The notes under the pieces were generated by a model that had not been told where the DNA came from, did not search any database, and saw nothing but the letters and a program-made list of their open reading frames with translations. This document shows positions 19,262 to 30,454 of a DNA stretch of 42,822 nt, piece by piece. The position numbers were made by a program, and so were the translations under genes. Where the stretch lies: NCBI GenBank assembly GCA_902794475.1, contig CADBHR010000010.1, forward strand, positions 1 through 42,822, written 5' to 3'. Position 1 is the stretch's first letter, and the number at the start of each line of letters is the position of its first letter. The stretch comes from an uncultured Methanobrevibacter sp. Lineage in GTDB: Archaea; Methanobacteriota; Methanobacteria; Methanobacteriales; Methanobacteriaceae.

Positions 19262-20032
19262 CTATCTTTCATCAAGGAATTTCAATACATAATCCCTGTA
19301 TTCAACTCCATAAGGTATCTCCATATCAACAAACAGTTCTCTTCTTTTTACGATAACCTTCTCGTTTTTGACTGGGTTGAAACCTTCTCTTTCAACATCT
19401 TTAAAGTAGATTCCACATCCGTATTTTTGCCAGTTGGCAACACTGTCAAAATCGATGCCCCTTTCGGCCAATAGCTCTTTTTTGAATTTGGAACCTTTGC
19501 CGTTTAAGATTCTTGAAGCCTGAGATGCGGTCTTGCCCTCATCCCTTAAGGTCCAATAACAATATCCGTTTAAGGCATTTCTCCGAGAATCCTCTTGTCT
19601 CCATCTGAAATAGTCACCAACTCTTTTTTTGCTAGGCAAAGGCACTACACGACTGTCAAAAGTGGCAATTTGACCAATTTTAAGAGAAAATGCGGCACTA
19701 GCTTCACCTGAAAGAGTGGAGTTGATTTTTCTTACCTTCCTTGAAAAGGTATTTTCGCTTGGATGGAAAAGCAGTGAAATCTCGTCACTTTCAGTGTATC
19801 CATACACGATTTTAAAACCGCATTCCATTAATGATTTAACAGTTTCGGTCATCAAATCCCTAAATCTTTCGTCAAAAGGGGCTTTAAATTTGCAGACCCT
19901 TTTAGTCAAGCGGGTGAATGAGCGCCCATCAAGACGAACAACAATATAATCCTCCTCGGGAACATATTGATCAAGGGATTCCTCATATTCTCTCATTTCC
20001 ATGTCAAAATCATCAAATTTCATTTTAACCAT
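19262..20032 (-). CDS. thg1: tRNA-His guanylyltransferase (Thg1 family)
   Basis: A 256-residue Thg1-like 3'-5' nucleotide polymerase. VRLDGRSFTRLTK (about residues 32-44) and GYTESDEISLLF (about 78-89) carry the metal-binding aspartates of the palm domain. The C-terminal region (YFRWRQEDSRRNALNGYCYW) matches the tRNA-binding part. It adds G-1 to tRNA-His or repairs 5' ends. It lies downstream of the tRNA cluster on the same strand. ATG 20032 or ATG 20023 (MKFDDFDM) could be the start; neither has a strong ribosome site. Confidence 0.87.
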   Translation of the reverse strand: MVKMKFDDFDMEMREYEESLDQYVPEEDYIVVRLDGRSFTRLTKRVCKFKAPFDERFRDLMTETVKSLMECGFKIVYGYTESDEISLLFHPSENTFSRKVRKINSTLSGEASAAFSLKIGQIATFDSRVVPLPSKKRVGDYFRWRQEDSRRNALNGYCYWTLRDEGKTASQASRILNGKGSKFKKELLAERGIDFDSVANWQKYGCGIYFKDVEREGFNPVKNEKVIVKRRELFVDMEIPYGVEYRDYVLKFLDER

Positions 20033-21992: not shown

Positions 21993-22024
21993 TATATAAA
22001 TCACATAAAGCACTTGCTTTATAC
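21993..22024 (-). promoter_or_regulatory. Palindrome-TATA promoter element, copy A
   Basis: On the minus strand AAAGC-AAG-TGCTTTA is followed by T and then GTGATTTATATATA. AAAGCA/TGCTTT is an inverted repeat placed directly before a TATA box, about 50 bases upstream of the zinc-knuckle ORF. The same element recurs at 22079-22110 and at 32555-32584. Confidence 0.6.
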
Positions 22025-22078: not shown

Positions 22079-22110
22079 TATATAAATCACATAAAGCATT
22101 TGCTTTATAC
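22079..22110 (-). promoter_or_regulatory. Palindrome-TATA promoter element, copy B
   Basis: It differs from copy A at one position (AAAGC-AAA-TGCTTTA, T, GTGATTTATATAT) and lies 86 bases upstream of it in the same direction. Flanking bases (AGATTAT, then TTAG or TAG) also match, so this is a tandem duplication of about 86 bp. No separate ORF follows copy B. A weaker match to the flank (GATTATGTATT) near 22160 may be a third, decayed unit. Confidence 0.55.
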
Positions 22111-22231: not shown

Positions 22232-22915
22232 ATGCAAAAATCAACAAAGATAATTCTTTTTGTAGTGATTTTAATTGTTATAGGAGGAATAATATTTTTC
22301 GAAATCTCAAAAAATCCTGAAATCAAATACACTACAATTGCCAATACAAGTATTGGTACAGTGGAAGTCGGAACAGCAGGAAATGAAAATGCCACTACAT
22401 GCATTGCCCTGATAACAGGAATTCACCCAAGGGAAACATTGTCCATTGATCCTGAAATCCAGGCGACAAGAGAATTTGGAAACGACAATGTCAAGATAAT
22501 CAACTATAAGGTAACCGTGACTGAAAGTCCTGAGGACTACGAACAGGGAAGGGCAAACGGAGAAAGTCTGGTACATGATTACGTTAATCCGAACTTAACA
22601 TCTTCCGATGCGGATGCAGTCATAATCAGCCATTCACATAATGCCGATTACGGTGAAGGATTTTATCTTGCCACACCTGAAATGGATAACTCTTCAGTGA
22701 GCATTGCTGAAAAGGTCAGTGAGAAAAGCGACTTCAACTATTATCCTGTAACAGGTAATGAAACATACAAATCCACATCAGCTGTTTTGGTTTCAAAACC
22801 TATTGCACAAGCAGGCTATCCTACATTTGTTTATGAAATACCTGAAGACATCTGGGAAAGCACTGCAACCGACAAGACCAAGGAATTATTCAATTTGATT
22901 GTAGAAAATCTTTAA
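22232..22915 (+). CDS. Membrane-anchored M14/AstE-like metallopeptidase
   Basis: A 227-residue protein with an N-terminal membrane anchor (about residues 6-25) and an extracytoplasmic domain. GIHPRE (about 63-68) matches the HxxE zinc motif of the M14 carboxypeptidase/AstE-like group. IISHSHNADYGEGF supplies a candidate third histidine and TFVYEIPED a candidate catalytic glutamate. This assignment is from motifs only. ATG 22232 has AAGGTGG correctly spaced; GTG 22223 is inside that site. Its stop is nine bases before the CARF-HEPN gene, so the two are probably co-transcribed. Confidence 0.6.
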   Translation: MQKSTKIILFVVILIVIGGIIFFEISKNPEIKYTTIANTSIGTVEVGTAGNENATTCIALITGIHPRETLSIDPEIQATREFGNDNVKIINYKVTVTESPEDYEQGRANGESLVHDYVNPNLTSSDADAVIISHSHNADYGEGFYLATPEMDNSSVSIAEKVSEKSDFNYYPVTGNETYKSTSAVLVSKPIAQAGYPTFVYEIPEDIWESTATDKTKELFNLIVENL

Positions 22916-22924
22916 AGTGATATT

Positions 22925-24199
22925 ATGAAAAGAAAGGAAGTTATTCTGTTCATGACAGTAGGAACCGGTACCAATTTAAGTTCAAACGAAGAAAGCTCAA
23001 AAGATCTTGCCCAAAAATTATATTATACAATAGATAAGATGCGACCAAATCATGTTGTATTTTTTGCATCCGACAAATCAAAAGAAACCATAGGATATAT
23101 TGAAGATTTATTTGTAAGGGATAATGATGAATTTATAGAAGGTGAGGATTATCAGATTGTTGAAATAACTGCAATTGATGATTTGAATACCTGTTTTGAA
23201 ACATATGAACAAAAGTTATGGGAATTTGATTACGCCGATAATAAAAAAGATTATCAAATAATAATGGACTATACCTCCGGAACCAAGACAATGTCTGCCG
23301 CAATGGCAAGCTGCGGAATATTCTATTCAAAGGACCTTATTTCAATAGGAGGGGACAGGTCAACAGGCGAGGTTTCAAGAGGAACCGAAATCATCAATTA
23401 TCAAAACATCTACAAGATACATGACAAATTTCTACTAACAAGAATCAGATACAATTTCGATGCAAACCGTTTCATGGCAAGCATCGAAATGATGAACTAC
23501 ATCGTTGATTTGAATATCCATAAGGAATCATTGATTCACCTCTTCAAATCATATTATGCATGGGACAATATGGATTTTGAAGAGGCATACAACCATCTAA
23601 GACAAGTGGATGCCAATCAAATGGAGCTGAACGATATCAAAAACGACATTAAATTCAATCTGAAAGCTCTTGGAAACATCATGAATTCAAGATCAGTCAA
23701 CTTGAAAAACTGCTATATTCTTGCAAGCCTGATTAATAATTCAATAAGAAGGTCTGAAGAGTTCAAATATGATGATGCCATAGCAAGATTATACAGGTCA
23801 CTGGAATTGATTGCACAAATTGAATTAACAAAATATAACCTGAAAAGCTCAGACATTAAAGTTTCAACACTTAAGGAAAACAATGTATCCGATGAATTCA
23901 TAGCAGAATTAGAAAAAATAAGAGAAGACGGAAAAATAAGAATAGGACTTGAAAAAGATTTCCTACTTTTGAATGAACTGGGAAATGAACTGGGCAAGTA
24001 TTATATTGAAAACAAATCCAAAATTAAAAATTTAACTAAAAAAAGAAACAACTCCATTTTAGCACATGGCCTTGATTCATTAACCAAAAAAGACTTTGAT
24101 GAATTCTTAGATATCGTACTCAATTTATCATATACTTTGGATAAGGATATGAAAAAATTCTTAAAGCAAACCAAATTCGCAAAATTTGATTTAGACTAA
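22925..24199 (+). CDS. CARF-HEPN ribonuclease, Csm6/TIGR02710-like
   Basis: A 424-residue protein of the CRISPR-linked CARF group. The N-terminal Rossmann-like CARF domain has VGTGTN (12-17) and DYTSGTKTMSAAMA (115-128), which bind cyclic oligoadenylate in relatives. Residues about 280-300 (IARLYRSLELIAQIEL) match the TIGR02710 family. RNNSILAH (R374 to H381) is a HEPN Rx6H ribonuclease motif. In type III CRISPR systems such enzymes degrade RNA when activated by cyclic oligoadenylate. No cas gene or array is in the window. GTGAT precedes ATG 22925. Confidence 0.8.
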   Translation: MKRKEVILFMTVGTGTNLSSNEESSKDLAQKLYYTIDKMRPNHVVFFASDKSKETIGYIEDLFVRDNDEFIEGEDYQIVEITAIDDLNTCFETYEQKLWEFDYADNKKDYQIIMDYTSGTKTMSAAMASCGIFYSKDLISIGGDRSTGEVSRGTEIINYQNIYKIHDKFLLTRIRYNFDANRFMASIEMMNYIVDLNIHKESLIHLFKSYYAWDNMDFEEAYNHLRQVDANQMELNDIKNDIKFNLKALGNIMNSRSVNLKNCYILASLINNSIRRSEEFKYDDAIARLYRSLELIAQIELTKYNLKSSDIKVSTLKENNVSDEFIAELEKIREDGKIRIGLEKDFLLLNELGNELGKYYIENKSKIKNLTKKRNNSILAHGLDSLTKKDFDEFLDIVLNLSYTLDKDMKKFLKQTKFAKFDLD

Positions 24200-24251: not shown

Positions 24252-26864
24252 TTAGAAAGGAAGACTTGCATAAGTTCCTGATAAGGAAAATGATTTAGTA
24301 TTCCAATTAACTATATTACCAAATGAATTTCTTGAACTTGTTGGGTCTACAACATACCAATAGTTGTCAACACATACTTGAGCCCATACATGACCGTATG
24401 TACTTCCACTGGAGAATGTACATGTTCCGTGAACGTATCTGGCAGGAATGCCTGCGGTCCTTAACATTGCAACAAGTAAATGAGCCTGGTCTACACAATT
24501 TCCTGATCCAGCATTATAGGTACCTACTGCACCATAGTGTGTGTCATAATAGAAACTGTATGAAATGGAATCTCTTACAAAGTTGTAAATTGCCTTAGCC
24601 TTGGCTAAATCAGTAGTCAAGTCTTTAGTAAGTGAATTTACTTTTGATTTGAGTTTAGAGTTTCCAACTTGACAATTAGATGTAGATTTAAGATAAATAC
24701 TTAAGTCTTTAACTGTATTCTTCTGATTCAAACCTGTTCCACCTTGTGAACTTGAAGATCCTGAACCATAAGTGATTGTACAGTAATTTGGTAAATATTT
24801 ATCATTGTCTGCATAAAATACTAAAATCCTAGAGAATGCATCACCCAATTCACCATATATGATTTTTCCAACAGCTGAATTAGCAAAATTAGGTGCCTGT
24901 TTATTATTATTAATATAGGTCACAAGATTTTTTGCTACAGTTAGATAATCTTTCTTATATAATTCAATTGAACTAATAGTGTCTCCAGAAGGTGATGAAG
25001 GTGCTTTGACCCCAGTCAAAATACCGACATTTCCAGTTTTTGAATTGCCTAACTCACTAATAGCTTCACCCATTACATATAAAAATTCAGGCATTGTAAA
25101 TTTGAGTCCACCTGCAGTTACAGTAGCAGGCAATTTTTCATTGCTTGCATAATATGATTTAACTGTTCTTGCACCAGCGATAACATTTGCAAGAGATATG
25201 GTGTCAATTTTTTTCACAGTTAAATCAGCTGTACCATAACTTGGAGCATTTAGATTGCTTCCGCCATATTGATATGAAACAGAATATGTGCCCGGTGTGA
25301 AACTAGCACTAACAGTTGCATAACCATCGGAAGATGTTTTAGCATTGTAATATTTGGAATTTACATTCAAAAGAACATTTCCATTGGATACAGGTTTATT
25401 ATTTGAATCAAGCACTAAGATTTTACAATTTTGAGTGCCTTGATAAAATGTGGTTTCACTTTTCCAGCTTACTGAAGTAACTGCTCTTTCAACAACACTA
25501 ATCGGAGTTGATCCGGATTTTGCATTAAGTTTAGAAGTTGCTGAATGAGAGTATTTGATTGTATATTGACCAATGTCTAAATTAATTGGTAATGAAACAA
25601 TTCCTTTGCTGTTAGTAGTTTTGGTGTATTTTTGACCATCAACATTGAGTGTTACTTTTTTATTGGTAATTGGAACGCTTCCAGATGTTAAAGCTAATTT
25701 GAATTGTGTTCCTGCATCCTTACCGAATGTTTTTGTACTTTTAACAGTGTAGGTAGGGTTTTTAGATGGAATAATTATAACTTTATCACTTGCACTGGAT
25801 GCTTTGTAATAACCAAACTTGTTAAATTGATATTTTGCAGTGTAAATTCCTTCTTTTAGTGAAGGCAATTTAAATGTGGCAACACCGTTTTTATTGGTGG
25901 TTGCAGTGTATTTTTTACCGTCAATTTTTAATTTGATAACTTTACCTGATTTTGGAGCGTAACCAAATTCGTTAAGTAATTTAACCTTTACCTTTTTGGC
26001 ATCACTTTTCAGGAAAGTGTAGGTTTTAGTGGTTAATGAAGATTTAGCTAATGTAACCACTTTCACTTTATTGGTTTTTGTCAAACCGTCTCTATTATAT
26101 GATATGATTTTATAAGTTCCTTTAGGAAGATTAGTTAATGACAAACTAGCTTCCCCTTTACTATTAGTCTTTACTTTGTAGGTTCTACCATTGATTTTAA
26201 ATTGTATATTCTTATTAACCAGAGCTTTTCCCTTTTTATTAAGAAAAGTGGCAGTGTATTTTTTACTATCAGTATAAACTTTACTCATGTCACTTGAAAC
26301 GATTGTTGATAAAACCTTAATCTTTTTAGTTAAAGAATAACCAGTATAATCATTATTTACAACAATTTTATGTGTTCCAGGTTTGAGATTAATAATATCT
26401 AAGGAAGCAACACCTTTACTATTGGTTTTTACAGTATGGCTTTTACCGTCCAATACAAATTTAATATCCTTATTGATTACCGGTGTGCCATTCAGATTTA
26501 AAAATGTTGCGGTATACTTTGCAGTTCCCTTATAATATGTAGTAACATCTTTAGCGGTGATAGTATCTGATATATCAATCTCTGATTGTGCATTATTATC
26601 ACTTACCAAAGAATTACCTTCTTCCATGTTAGTTGATAAAGTACTTGAATCTTCAGATTTTAAAACATCATTTGATGAATCATTATCAACAACAGATTCA
26701 CTCGCCTGCAACTCTGATGAGTCATCACTAGCAATGATTTGTGCATCATCTTGTGAGCCAGAAACATATGAATCTGTAACATTTACATCACTTGCACATA
26801 TTGTACCAACTGATAATGCAGCAGCAAGCACAAAAACGAAAGTGAGTAATATTTTTTTGTTCAA
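24252..26864 (-). CDS. Secreted pseudomurein-binding protein with transglutaminase-like C71 domain
   Basis: An 870-residue exported protein: signal peptide (1-25), a Ser/Asp-rich linker (26-105), and about five Ig-like repeats (106-555). Each repeat carries a variant of KTNSKGVASL followed by GTY-I-Y. Two pseudomurein-binding repeats come next (about 558-700: NVIAGARTVKSYYASNEKLP and NLVTYINNNKQAPN). The C-terminal transglutaminase-like domain has GNCVDQ (C789), GHVWAQV (H824) and VVDPTS (D839). This matches the C-H-D triad of pseudomurein endoisopeptidase-like enzymes (C71). It probably binds and cuts or remodels the wall, or helps adhesion. The start is TTG with GGAGGTAA upstream. Confidence 0.85.
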   Translation of the reverse strand: MNKKILLTFVFVLAAALSVGTICASDVNVTDSYVSGSQDDAQIIASDDSSELQASESVVDNDSSNDVLKSEDSSTLSTNMEEGNSLVSDNNAQSEIDISDTITAKDVTTYYKGTAKYTATFLNLNGTPVINKDIKFVLDGKSHTVKTNSKGVASLDIINLKPGTHKIVVNNDYTGYSLTKKIKVLSTIVSSDMSKVYTDSKKYTATFLNKKGKALVNKNIQFKINGRTYKVKTNSKGEASLSLTNLPKGTYKIISYNRDGLTKTNKVKVVTLAKSSLTTKTYTFLKSDAKKVKVKLLNEFGYAPKSGKVIKLKIDGKKYTATTNKNGVATFKLPSLKEGIYTAKYQFNKFGYYKASSASDKVIIIPSKNPTYTVKSTKTFGKDAGTQFKLALTSGSVPITNKKVTLNVDGQKYTKTTNSKGIVSLPINLDIGQYTIKYSHSATSKLNAKSGSTPISVVERAVTSVSWKSETTFYQGTQNCKILVLDSNNKPVSNGNVLLNVNSKYYNAKTSSDGYATVSASFTPGTYSVSYQYGGSNLNAPSYGTADLTVKKIDTISLANVIAGARTVKSYYASNEKLPATVTAGGLKFTMPEFLYVMGEAISELGNSKTGNVGILTGVKAPSSPSGDTISSIELYKKDYLTVAKNLVTYINNNKQAPNFANSAVGKIIYGELGDAFSRILVFYADNDKYLPNYCTITYGSGSSSSQGGTGLNQKNTVKDLSIYLKSTSNCQVGNSKLKSKVNSLTKDLTTDLAKAKAIYNFVRDSISYSFYYDTHYGAVGTYNAGSGNCVDQAHLLVAMLRTAGIPARYVHGTCTFSSGSTYGHVWAQVCVDNYWYVVDPTSSRNSFGNIVNWNTKSFSLSGTYASLPF

Positions 26865-27346: not shown

Positions 27347-30300
27347 TTATTTTCCCATTGCCTCCTTTTTTTCAATGTCGATATTATCCTCAACTGATAT
27401 TGAAACAGTTGATTTAGATTCATCTTCCAAAATTTTGTTAAGGGTATCCATTTTTTTAGAGTTTTTCATGATGTGCTTGAAATTGAAAAATTCCGAATTT
27501 TCCAGAATGTCCCTAACCTTCTTCCCATCAATTCCTTCACTTTCACTGTCGAAGAATTCCATTTTCTGATTTATGATATCATATTTTTTCCATATCCCGT
27601 AATCGGCACTGCCCAAATCCTTTTTCAGCTTTTTGTTTAAAAATTTAACAGATATTCCAATATCCCGTGCCCTTCTAAAAGTCAACACTCTTGGAATGAT
27701 GACACCCAATTCAAAAATCATGGCAAACACCTTATATTTTTCATCCCCTTCCTTTCCATTGAAATACCACTCATAAATCTCATCGACGCTGATTCCCGCA
27801 TCCCTTGCCAGCTTGACACCAGTAGTCTTATTTTTAGTTATAGCTTCGCCAATTATGGATATTCTTTCCTTAAGGACAATATCCTCGATTTCCTCCCTAT
27901 TCTCATCAAACTCTTCCTCTGATAATGCAGAATTTTTCAAGGCAATCTTCAATGACTTTTTCGACAGCACACTATCGACGAATATATTTATTTTGACATC
28001 AAGCAAATCATGGTAGAAGTCCTTGAAATTCTCATTGCCTGATTTTCCCAATTCATAATAGTAATCCAATTCTCCCTTACTGAGTTTTGCATTTTTAAGA
28101 GATTTGAAGAGTGTTTTTGTCTGAAAATCATTGAGGAATATATCAAGGTGCTTTGGAATGACATTGTTTTCATATAAATAAAACAGATTGCCGTATTTTC
28201 TAAATCCATTTTGACCCAATTCAATGAATTCATCTATTGTTCTGACAGATATATCATAAATTTCAGAGACTTCCATTTTTGACATGCCCTGTTGGAATCC
28301 CCTTACAATCAAATCGACTGTTACCTGATTATTTCTTTTTGAAAATTCATAAAATATGTCAAATTCAGTATGATTAAGCCATTTGTTTATAACAGTATTT
28401 GACAATCCAACGCTTTTTGCCGAATCAGGTTTATTCCTGCCGTCTGTTCTTGCCTGAAGGTATTTGTCCATAAGTTCTTGTGTGGCAGTTAAATAAAAGA
28501 GGGTGGATTTTCTTGTTGATAGGAACATGTCCTGATCTTTAAAGTACCATTTGTTAAATTCCTTTTGAGATATTTCACACTTTTGGATGGCATTGTAGAA
28601 ATCCTCATTTTGGATAATTTCCGTGAATAATCTTTTTCTGCTTTTCTCGTATTCCTCATCAAATCTTAAATAGAACTCAGTCTTTTCTCTTTTGCTTGCA
28701 TTGTAAATTTCCATAAATTCCCTTGGAGTGAGATTTGCATAAAAGATTGCTTCCTGTTTGCTTTTACCTTCCTTTATTCCGTTAATGATTCTCCCTCTCT
28801 TAATCAGATCAGATGTGATTTTTGCATTTTTATTTTCAAAGTCTCTGAACAAATCGGATTCTCCGTGTTTTGACCAAGAGTTATACATATCCCTTGAAAC
28901 ATTTATTTCCCTTAGGATATCCCTTTTGTCCCAATCATTTTTCCGATAATTGATGTATTTGTCCATTAGCAGTTCAGTGGTTTTTAAATAAAATTCCGAA
29001 AGCGTTTTTTCACTTTCATAATACCATTTTAGAAACTCGGTTTTTGTAATCTTAGATAATCTGATGGCCTTATTAAGATTATGATTCCTAAGGTGTTTGA
29101 GTAACATCTTTTGTCTTTTGTGAACGTATTCCCTTTGAAAACTATTATAGAACTCATCATCTGCACTTTCTGATACACTATACATTTTTTCAAAGGCGCT
29201 TTTCGTTATTTTTGCTGATTTTAAAGCATCATTCAATGATTTGTTGTTTTTTAGTTCATCTATAATCACATCCCTCTTGAAGTTACTGTTTTTCTTGGTG
29301 AACCTGCCTGCCATAAACTGATTTTGCCAAAATTGATAAACATCCTTCGGAATATTCAGCCGGATTAAAATGTCCTCGTCGTCCGCTTGGCTTTTCTTCT
29401 TTAGTGTGAAAAAATCATTGACAAGAATATTATTATATAATATGAAAGCATCATTTATTATGCCCTCATCAAAAGATTCCTTTTCACGATAAAACCAGTA
29501 TTTAACATCCAAAGCATTCATTGAAGATTTTTTCATACTTTTTTTAATGTTTTTTGACTGCAAGAGATTTTCCTCAAATGTCTTTTCGATCTTGACTGTG
29601 GCAAGCTTGAAAAATTCCCTATAGGGCTTTTGGTCCCTGCAGCCTTTCTTATATTGTGGAGTCTCCTTCACTTCCTCAGCTGAAATTTCATCCTTGTAAA
29701 ATTTTGTAATCAGCATTCCAATCTCTATGTACTGGTCGATTTCATGGAGATAATTATTAAAATTCTCATGATTGATACGGTAATGCTCCCCGTTATTTGT
29801 TATTGCATCATATTTCGATAAATCCATAAGCAAAAGGATTGCCCGGCTTTCATTGATTCCCGATTCGACCAGATCCTGCCTTGTGAATGGTGCATCATTG
29901 AATGTGTTTTGAATGCCTAACATGAAACTTGCATTCTCTATTTTCTGGTTGCATATTTTGCACATGTTGGACATGGATTTTTTGTTCGAATATCCGCAGA
30001 TGATGCAGTTATCGAAATGGACATCCATATTGGACGGTTTTTTGTAATCGGGAATTTCAATATAGATTTCATTTTCACAAAAATCCCTGAAATATTTCTT
30101 TGATATATAATATAGCCTTCTGTGCAAATCAAATGCGAGGTCCTTTTCTTCGCTATGTCCAAGAGAACTCTTATGGATTCTGTTTCTTAGATTATATGCT
30201 TCCTGAAGTTTGTTTTTGTAGATGTAGCTTATTGCCCCCATCCTGTAAAGGTTATCGATTTTTCTGTAAAATGACTTTAAATGTTTTTCAAGTTTATTAT

Positions 30301-30454
30301 TTGATAGTTTATATATGTCTTTAACCAAATTTTCCAAAAATAAAGTTGCATCGGCCGTTACAGCCCTTGGAGAATTCAAAACATCCTCCTCAAGTTTTAC
30401 GCCGATTTCATACAATTCATTATTAAAATTTTTTAAAAAATCAAAATTTGTCAT
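27347..30454 (-). CDS. HEPN/DUF4145-like protein with zinc ribbon and helix-turn-helix array
   Basis: A 1035-residue cytoplasmic protein of unknown function. Residues about 30-125 resemble DUF4145/HEPN-like domains (LFLENLVKDIY, LRNRIHKS). A four-cysteine zinc ribbon follows (C150, C153, C165, C168), then a helical region. From about 300 to 960 there are roughly 12-13 repeats of 50-75 residues, each with an Ala-Ile/Leu-Ser-type helix-turn-helix core. Examples are LKSAKITKSAFEKMY, RLSKITKTEFLKWYY, KCEISQKEFNKWYF and ARDAGISVDEIYEWYF, often followed by an acidic G-E-D-Fy tail. These resemble terminase-small-subunit or transposase HTHs. An extended nucleic-acid-binding role is inferred. Confidence 0.75.
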   Translation of the reverse strand: MTNFDFLKNFNNELYEIGVKLEEDVLNSPRAVTADATLFLENLVKDIYKLSNNKLEKHLKSFYRKIDNLYRMGAISYIYKNKLQEAYNLRNRIHKSSLGHSEEKDLAFDLHRRLYYISKKYFRDFCENEIYIEIPDYKKPSNMDVHFDNCIICGYSNKKSMSNMCKICNQKIENASFMLGIQNTFNDAPFTRQDLVESGINESRAILLLMDLSKYDAITNNGEHYRINHENFNNYLHEIDQYIEIGMLITKFYKDEISAEEVKETPQYKKGCRDQKPYREFFKLATVKIEKTFEENLLQSKNIKKSMKKSSMNALDVKYWFYREKESFDEGIINDAFILYNNILVNDFFTLKKKSQADDEDILIRLNIPKDVYQFWQNQFMAGRFTKKNSNFKRDVIIDELKNNKSLNDALKSAKITKSAFEKMYSVSESADDEFYNSFQREYVHKRQKMLLKHLRNHNLNKAIRLSKITKTEFLKWYYESEKTLSEFYLKTTELLMDKYINYRKNDWDKRDILREINVSRDMYNSWSKHGESDLFRDFENKNAKITSDLIKRGRIINGIKEGKSKQEAIFYANLTPREFMEIYNASKREKTEFYLRFDEEYEKSRKRLFTEIIQNEDFYNAIQKCEISQKEFNKWYFKDQDMFLSTRKSTLFYLTATQELMDKYLQARTDGRNKPDSAKSVGLSNTVINKWLNHTEFDIFYEFSKRNNQVTVDLIVRGFQQGMSKMEVSEIYDISVRTIDEFIELGQNGFRKYGNLFYLYENNVIPKHLDIFLNDFQTKTLFKSLKNAKLSKGELDYYYELGKSGNENFKDFYHDLLDVKINIFVDSVLSKKSLKIALKNSALSEEEFDENREEIEDIVLKERISIIGEAITKNKTTGVKLARDAGISVDEIYEWYFNGKEGDEKYKVFAMIFELGVIIPRVLTFRRARDIGISVKFLNKKLKKDLGSADYGIWKKYDIINQKMEFFDSESEGIDGKKVRDILENSEFFNFKHIMKNSKKMDTLNKILEDESKSTVSISVEDNIDIEKKEAMGK

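Follow-up and report, generated by a model that had tools for sequence, protein, structure and literature searches.

An orphan Csm6-type CARF-HEPN ribonuclease seemingly kept without Cas10 by rumen methanogens

CARF sensors are usually read as listening to Cas10, and the described proteins closest to the ribonuclease considered here are the Csm6/TIGR02710 (PF09670) effectors of type III CRISPR systems, with which it shares the CARF-6H-HEPN domain order, a profile match, a near full-length fold, the SGTK lysine and the R-x4-6-H motif. It differs from them in lying outside any cas operon in the window (the whole 42,822-nucleotide stretch of DNA analysed) and in that 27 of the 33 genomes carrying it have no cas10 match. 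The sequence family of the PADLOC model CARF1--CARF_HEPN (PDLC01802) also fits, and its listing names no trigger or system; the existence of such a close-fitting model indicates that sequences of this type have already been catalogued. CARF proteins outside cas loci, as here, are likewise described: a 2014 survey states that each CARF family includes genes outside CRISPR-Cas, and that just 9 of 145 CARF genomes were without both cas1 and cas10 (PMC4012209), whereas 23 of our 33 carriers, many of them incomplete MAGs, had a match to neither gene. Orphan CARF genes as such are known, and the group described here is a well-defined, testable clade of them; our search of the literature on Methanobrevibacter with Csm6, or on orphan or stand-alone CARF genes, found no study of this clade.

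The contig of the window is C10 of a 210-contig, 2.27 Mb genome with a completeness of 84.8%, and the comparison set comprised 138 genomes of the same taxonomic family, most of them MAGs. The CARF-HEPN family was present in 59 of the 138, including 33 carriers from two genera of the orthologue group of this ribonuclease, which was defined at 58-81% identity; 53 genomes from the same two genera formed the non-carrier comparison group. The main features of the locus are:

22232..22915, + strand: predicted, from fold model and alignment, as a minimal M14-fold carboxypeptidase with a membrane anchor (227 aa, or 230 aa from GTG 22223); judged from its distribution to lie outside the ribonuclease system
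22424..22435, + strand: HPRE zinc motif (H65, E68) of the M14-like protein, invariant in 30 relatives
22631-22639, + strand: H134/H136 of the M14-like protein, invariant in 30 relatives
22835-22837, + strand: E202 of the M14-like protein, invariant in 30 relatives
22925..24199, + strand: predicted orphan CARF-HEPN (Csm6-type, TIGR02710) ribonuclease, 424 aa, from profiles, alignment, tree and fold model
22958..22969, + strand: CARF motif 1 VGTG, residues 12-15, invariant in 28 orthologues
23270..23293, + strand: CARF motif YTSGTKTM, residues 116-123, conserved in the 28-orthologue alignment
24044..24067, + strand: HEPN active-site motif R374-N-x5-H381 (R374 at 24044-24046, H381 at 24065-24067), invariant in 28 orthologues

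Sequence and structure of the ribonuclease

The first-pass annotation of this DNA had described two open reading frames on the same strand, nine bases apart, and both were confirmed in the sequence. Its identification of the second as an orphan CARF-HEPN ribonuclease held: the product is matched by TIGR02710 (E 6e-56, 190 bits against a curated cut-off of 83.9), by Pfam PF09670 (Csm6 HEPN; E 3e-31, 108.6 bits against a cut-off of 27) and by PF22205 (Csm6 6H; E 1e-6), its best PADLOC model is PDLC01802 (E 2.7e-134, residues 5-422), its CARF and HEPN (R374-x6-H381) motifs are intact and its genome has no cas10 match. Thirteen positions are invariant across 28 orthologues (V12, G13, T14, G15, D115, Y116, T117, G119, T120, T122, M123, R374 and H381). 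By profile, HEPN motif and CARF motifs alike, the second gene is classed from its sequence as a Csm6-type CARF-HEPN ribonuclease.

An AlphaFold2 model built from the 28 orthologues (mean pLDDT 83; weak at residues 143-154 and 373-385) had as its best structural match Thermus Csm6 with cA4 (Z 19.0 over 367 residues), and the rmsd of 12.3 indicates that the domains are set differently in the model. In alignment, K121 of the SGTK motif corresponds to the lysine that is changed in the Thermus Csm6 structure 8jbc (K137A). The VGxG (V12, G13, G15) and YxSGTKTM motifs are conserved in the orphan and cas10-linked sets alike, and the pocket and HEPN active-site residues are common to the orphan ribonucleases and the 12 relatives that we labelled as cas10-linked. 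The residues that differ between the two sets lie mostly outside the motifs, and we therefore make no case for a changed ligand.

The upstream peptidase and other neighbouring genes

The first gene begins at GTG 22223 or ATG 22232 and ends at 22915 (+); residue numbers count from the ATG. The first-pass annotation had taken its product for a single-pass membrane protein with an M14-like HxxE zinc motif and had proposed modelling of the zinc site as a check. The fold model (pLDDT 87.5) bears out this description, with one N-terminal helix (residues 2-26) and an M14-fold domain in which H65, E68, H134/H136 and E202 are the invariant residues. A Foldseek search with the model reached E 1.5e-7 to a carboxypeptidase, and fold comparison gave Z 13.7-15.2 in all 50 matches listed, the top match among them being the Helicobacter D,L-carboxypeptidase Csd4 (Z 15.2, rmsd 3.4, 182 residues). 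Like M14 metallocarboxypeptidases such as Csd4, the protein has the fold, the HxxE zinc motif and a conserved Tyr-Glu; unlike them, it comprises only ~200 residues and has no match to the Pfam M14 profile at E values up to 10, nor did any of 30 members at E up to 1. Solved M14 structures gave zero matches to it by sequence. From M14 patterns, we take H65, E68 and H134/H136 to be zinc ligands and E202 to be the catalytic Glu. As modelled, the product of the first gene is a minimal metallocarboxypeptidase of the M14 fold that is anchored in the membrane and keeps an invariant zinc site; its peptidase domain, we infer, faces outward. It would be an envelope enzyme, and our guess is that it trims pseudomurein or surface proteins.

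Upstream of the peptidase gene lie two near-identical 30-base copies (21994-22023 and 22080-22109) with a TAAAGCA-TTGCTTTA palindrome. Shuffled sequence gave zero chance matches, no further copy was found elsewhere in the window's genome, and the two copies are a possible operator.

The first-pass annotation had joined the two genes in a module, with the CARF-HEPN protein and the envelope peptidase acting together in cyclic-nucleotide defence, a proposal that we now find hardly credible. The nine-base gap on one strand makes co-transcription plausible, and is present in three intact loci (G000, G072 and G075); the genes are also adjacent in two loci where the ribonuclease is broken (G079 and G082). 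These five are the only cases among the 33 carriers in which the peptidase gene directly precedes that of the ribonuclease, and the peptidase family is found in 135 of the 138 genomes, often in multiple copies (five in the window's genome). Nine other carriers have a peptidase orthologue (at least 65% identity) located away from the ribonuclease gene, 20 genomes have the orthologue without the ribonuclease, and carriers have it no more often than non-carriers (Fisher p = 0.82, no association). Among the 30 best peptidase loci inspected, 25 were free of the ribonuclease gene: it was in none of the 20 for which longer stretches were taken, and none lay within 1.5 kb at the other five. At two loci (G057 and G100), the gene directly behind the peptidase, at distances of 75 and 55 bases, is instead a homologue of the transglutaminase/Ig-like gene found behind the ribonuclease in the window, and in G091 a different gene occupies this spot. 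In other lineages, an unrelated 120-aa TPR-like gene ends 1-8 bases before the ribonuclease gene, or the latter stands alone with 280-410 bases free upstream. The check for co-occurrence in related genomes that the annotation had suggested thus found the pair unconserved, an outcome that it had itself set against its proposal.

A peptidase present family-wide, a pair that is rarely adjacent and genes that each occur without the other indicate a neighbourhood and not a module, and the peptidase was ruled out as a partner on its distribution, the rare adjacency and the peptidase sites that have no ribonuclease gene. In one sub-clade, the two genes would simply occupy the same variable site of the chromosome and perhaps use a common promoter. 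The nine-base gap should not be taken as the sign of a functional pair where the neighbouring peptidase is a family-wide gene.

Other genes of the region were also inspected. Downstream of the ribonuclease, 24252-26864 (-) encodes a secreted Ig-like/transglutaminase protein with a pseudomurein-binding repeat, likely a cell-wall enzyme, and 27347-30454 (-) a 1035-aa helical protein with repeated helix-turn-helix-like units and a CxxC cluster, which no Pfam or PADLOC model matched over cut-off. The type III locus of G039 includes a homologue of the latter (900 aa, 31% identity) whose neighbours are CARF-HEPN genes; the protein occurs in 31 of the 138 genomes, in most cases not near CARF genes, and on this distribution it was dropped as a candidate partner of the ribonuclease. 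The product of 19262-20032 (-) resembles, by eye, what we take to be a Thg1-type tRNA-His guanylyltransferase. At four loci (L082, L084, L086 and L087), a divergent gene upstream of the ribonuclease encodes a short protein with the motif RAVNGTxxNRAYYSAYSYALLWLEE, which looks HEPN- or toxin-like by eye. No recurring neighbour of the ribonuclease was found that might make a ligand, since the genes just upstream encode the 120-aa TPR-like protein, an acidic protein of 105 aa or the peptidase, and some loci have no close upstream gene.

Signal makers, descent and selection

The window's genome contained no match to the cas10, RAMP, cas1, mCpol or DAC profiles, and within the window no array-like repeat was found, as the first-pass annotation had also noted. 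The genome-wide search for cas10 and type III loci that it had recommended returned no cas10 or RAMP match in this 85% complete assembly, so that a type III locus could sit in the missing part. Across the 138 genomes, cas10 (PF22335) was matched in 23, RAMP (PF03787) in 25 and cas1 in 71. The frequency of cas10 was similar in carriers (6/33) and non-carriers (7/53; p = 0.55), and the ribonuclease is independent of cas10 across both carrier genera. Eight of the 11 carriers at least 95% complete had no cas10 match, seven had neither cas10 nor RAMP, and seven neither cas1 nor cas10. Carriers had cas1 less often than non-carriers (10/33 vs 30/53, p = 0.026, uncorrected for kinship).

A further 26 genomes have ribonuclease homologues that all fall outside the orthologue group, and 16 of these have cas10; the ten without it are G006, with a broken near relative, and nine of genus g12. 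The latter hold a distant CARF-HEPN set (L093-L097, L169-L173 and L177) at ~30% identity, perhaps an independent orphan lineage.

Other sources of a cyclic signal were searched for in the same 138 genomes. There was no mCpol over cut-off, and no match to DAC, for which the same search matched 11 of 14 control genomes; c-di-AMP was rejected as a trigger on this result. The SMODS profile matched 114 of the 138, nearly always as one ~457-aa protein per genome, the window's genome included (G029 and G076 each have another match). This protein is probably the archaeal CCA-adding enzyme, and a CD-NTase was set aside as signal source on that reading. With no mCpol or DAC match and the SMODS matches so read, any cyclic signal would need an undescribed enzyme, and on the mCpol and SMODS results the window's genome does not fit a Panoptes- or CBASS-like cyclic-nucleotide defence. 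A viral origin or cargo was also rejected, after a scan of viral contigs with the ribonuclease alignment gave 12 pattern matches and zero confirmed relatives.

In a tree of 73 homologues (L097_11021, shorter than 395 aa, was left out of the original 74), all 30 intact orphan copies group in a single clade (support 100/100) that is nested among cas10-near homologues. Labels in this tree were set by contig: G019 is labelled 'no_cas10_near' though its cas10 lies at 12.5 kb, and L160/G007, L165/G041 and L168/G035 bear the same label in genomes with cas10 on another contig. Among the 30 intact copies, dN/dS had a median of 0.109 (range 0.077-0.165) over the 18 of 435 pairs that were unsaturated (dS < 1.5), and in all 18 both genomes were without cas10; judged by these substitutions, the ribonuclease is under purifying selection between genomes that both have no cas10 match. 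Three of the 33 copies (G079, G081 and G082), left out of this calculation, are broken, as is the G006 relative, which may reflect decay or assembly error.

In the complete 2.94 Mb genome of G019, a CRISPR array of ~39 repeats is located ~3 kb from the ribonuclease gene, and cas10 lies 12.5 kb from it; a single TPR-like gene separates array and ribonuclease, and the left flank of the ribonuclease matches that in cas10-free relatives. The simplest reading suggests that loss of the type III locus left the effector behind; the alternative, although not the simplest, is that a type III locus arrived next to the ribonuclease. In G017, cas10 is on another contig and the contig of the ribonuclease ends 870 bp beyond the gene, so that adjacency to a type III locus could hold there too.

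Activation and role of the ribonuclease

We consider it likely that this protein is a Csm6-type effector ribonuclease that came apart from a type III CRISPR locus and has been kept by selection, on the basis of its family, intact motifs, fold match to Csm6 with cA4, nested clade, purifying selection, independence from cas10 and lack of a dedicated partner. By analogy with its family, it would work as a dimer, with a cyclic-oligoadenylate-like ligand binding across both CARF domains (VGTG and SGTK motifs); binding would open the paired HEPN sites (R374, H381), and RNA would then be cut non-specifically, leading to dormancy. Against this reading, G019 does have its copy of the gene at a type III locus, and the acquisition and loss of type III by individual strains could be enough to keep the effector of use, with no need for a new trigger.

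The first-pass suggestion of a type III accessory working at a distance is weakened by the window's genome with no cas10 or RAMP match and by the two genera with no cas10 association, but the complete genome of G019 has the gene beside such a locus. It is possible that the turnover of type III loci is faster than that of the ribonuclease, which would serve any Cas10 present in trans and be idle for now in cas10-free genomes; this would be one way to fill the missing ligand step. The six carriers with cas10, the unchanged CARF pocket motifs and the G019 gene beside a CRISPR array and csm locus, which relatives with the same flanks do not have, would be consistent with such a role, as would the sharing of signals between type III loci proposed in one study (PMC11229360). 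However, dN/dS is ~0.1 between genomes that both have no cas10 match, and carriers are no richer in cas10 than non-carriers and, uncorrected for kinship, poorer in cas1. Those same selection values, with 30 intact copies and invariant active-site residues, make it very unlikely that the gene is a functionless, decaying leftover of lost type III loci, as the four broken copies might otherwise suggest.

In the other first-pass suggestion, a stand-alone cyclic-nucleotide unit with an envelope effector, the envelope effector has been dropped and the stand-alone unit stays live. A stand-alone defence or stress ribonuclease with a non-Cas10 trigger, such as a different nucleotide or damaged ends of RNA, is possible although somewhat doubtful. 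The many carriers without cas10, the long retention under selection and the results for mCpol, DAC and SMODS all favour it, and the RNA repair operon that damaged tRNAs regulate through RtcR, which bears a divergent CARF domain (PMC7790460), suggests by analogy that signals of other kinds can act on CARF domains. Against it, the locus has no recurring gene that might be a partner, and the pocket motifs are unchanged from those of cas10-linked relatives, which speaks for the same ligand. Rather unlikely, in our view, is that the lineage left type III CRISPR and now acts alone in rumen Methanobrevibacter, its signal coming not from Cas10, mCpol, CD-NTase or DAC but being either a cyclic nucleotide of an undescribed enzyme or RNA with damaged ends; if true, the ribonuclease would be a self-contained switch for infection or RNA damage.

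We retain as the preferred reading a Csm6-type effector detached from its type III locus: an ordinary enzyme family in an unusual, well-supported context, with the proposed partner gene rejected. Many rumen methanogens seem to have kept this ribonuclease without the CRISPR enzyme that makes its alarm. An intact, selected CARF-HEPN clade in genomes without a Cas10 match raises the question of what else switches a CARF domain, and the small size of the protein (424 residues) makes the trigger approachable at the bench with a ligand panel.
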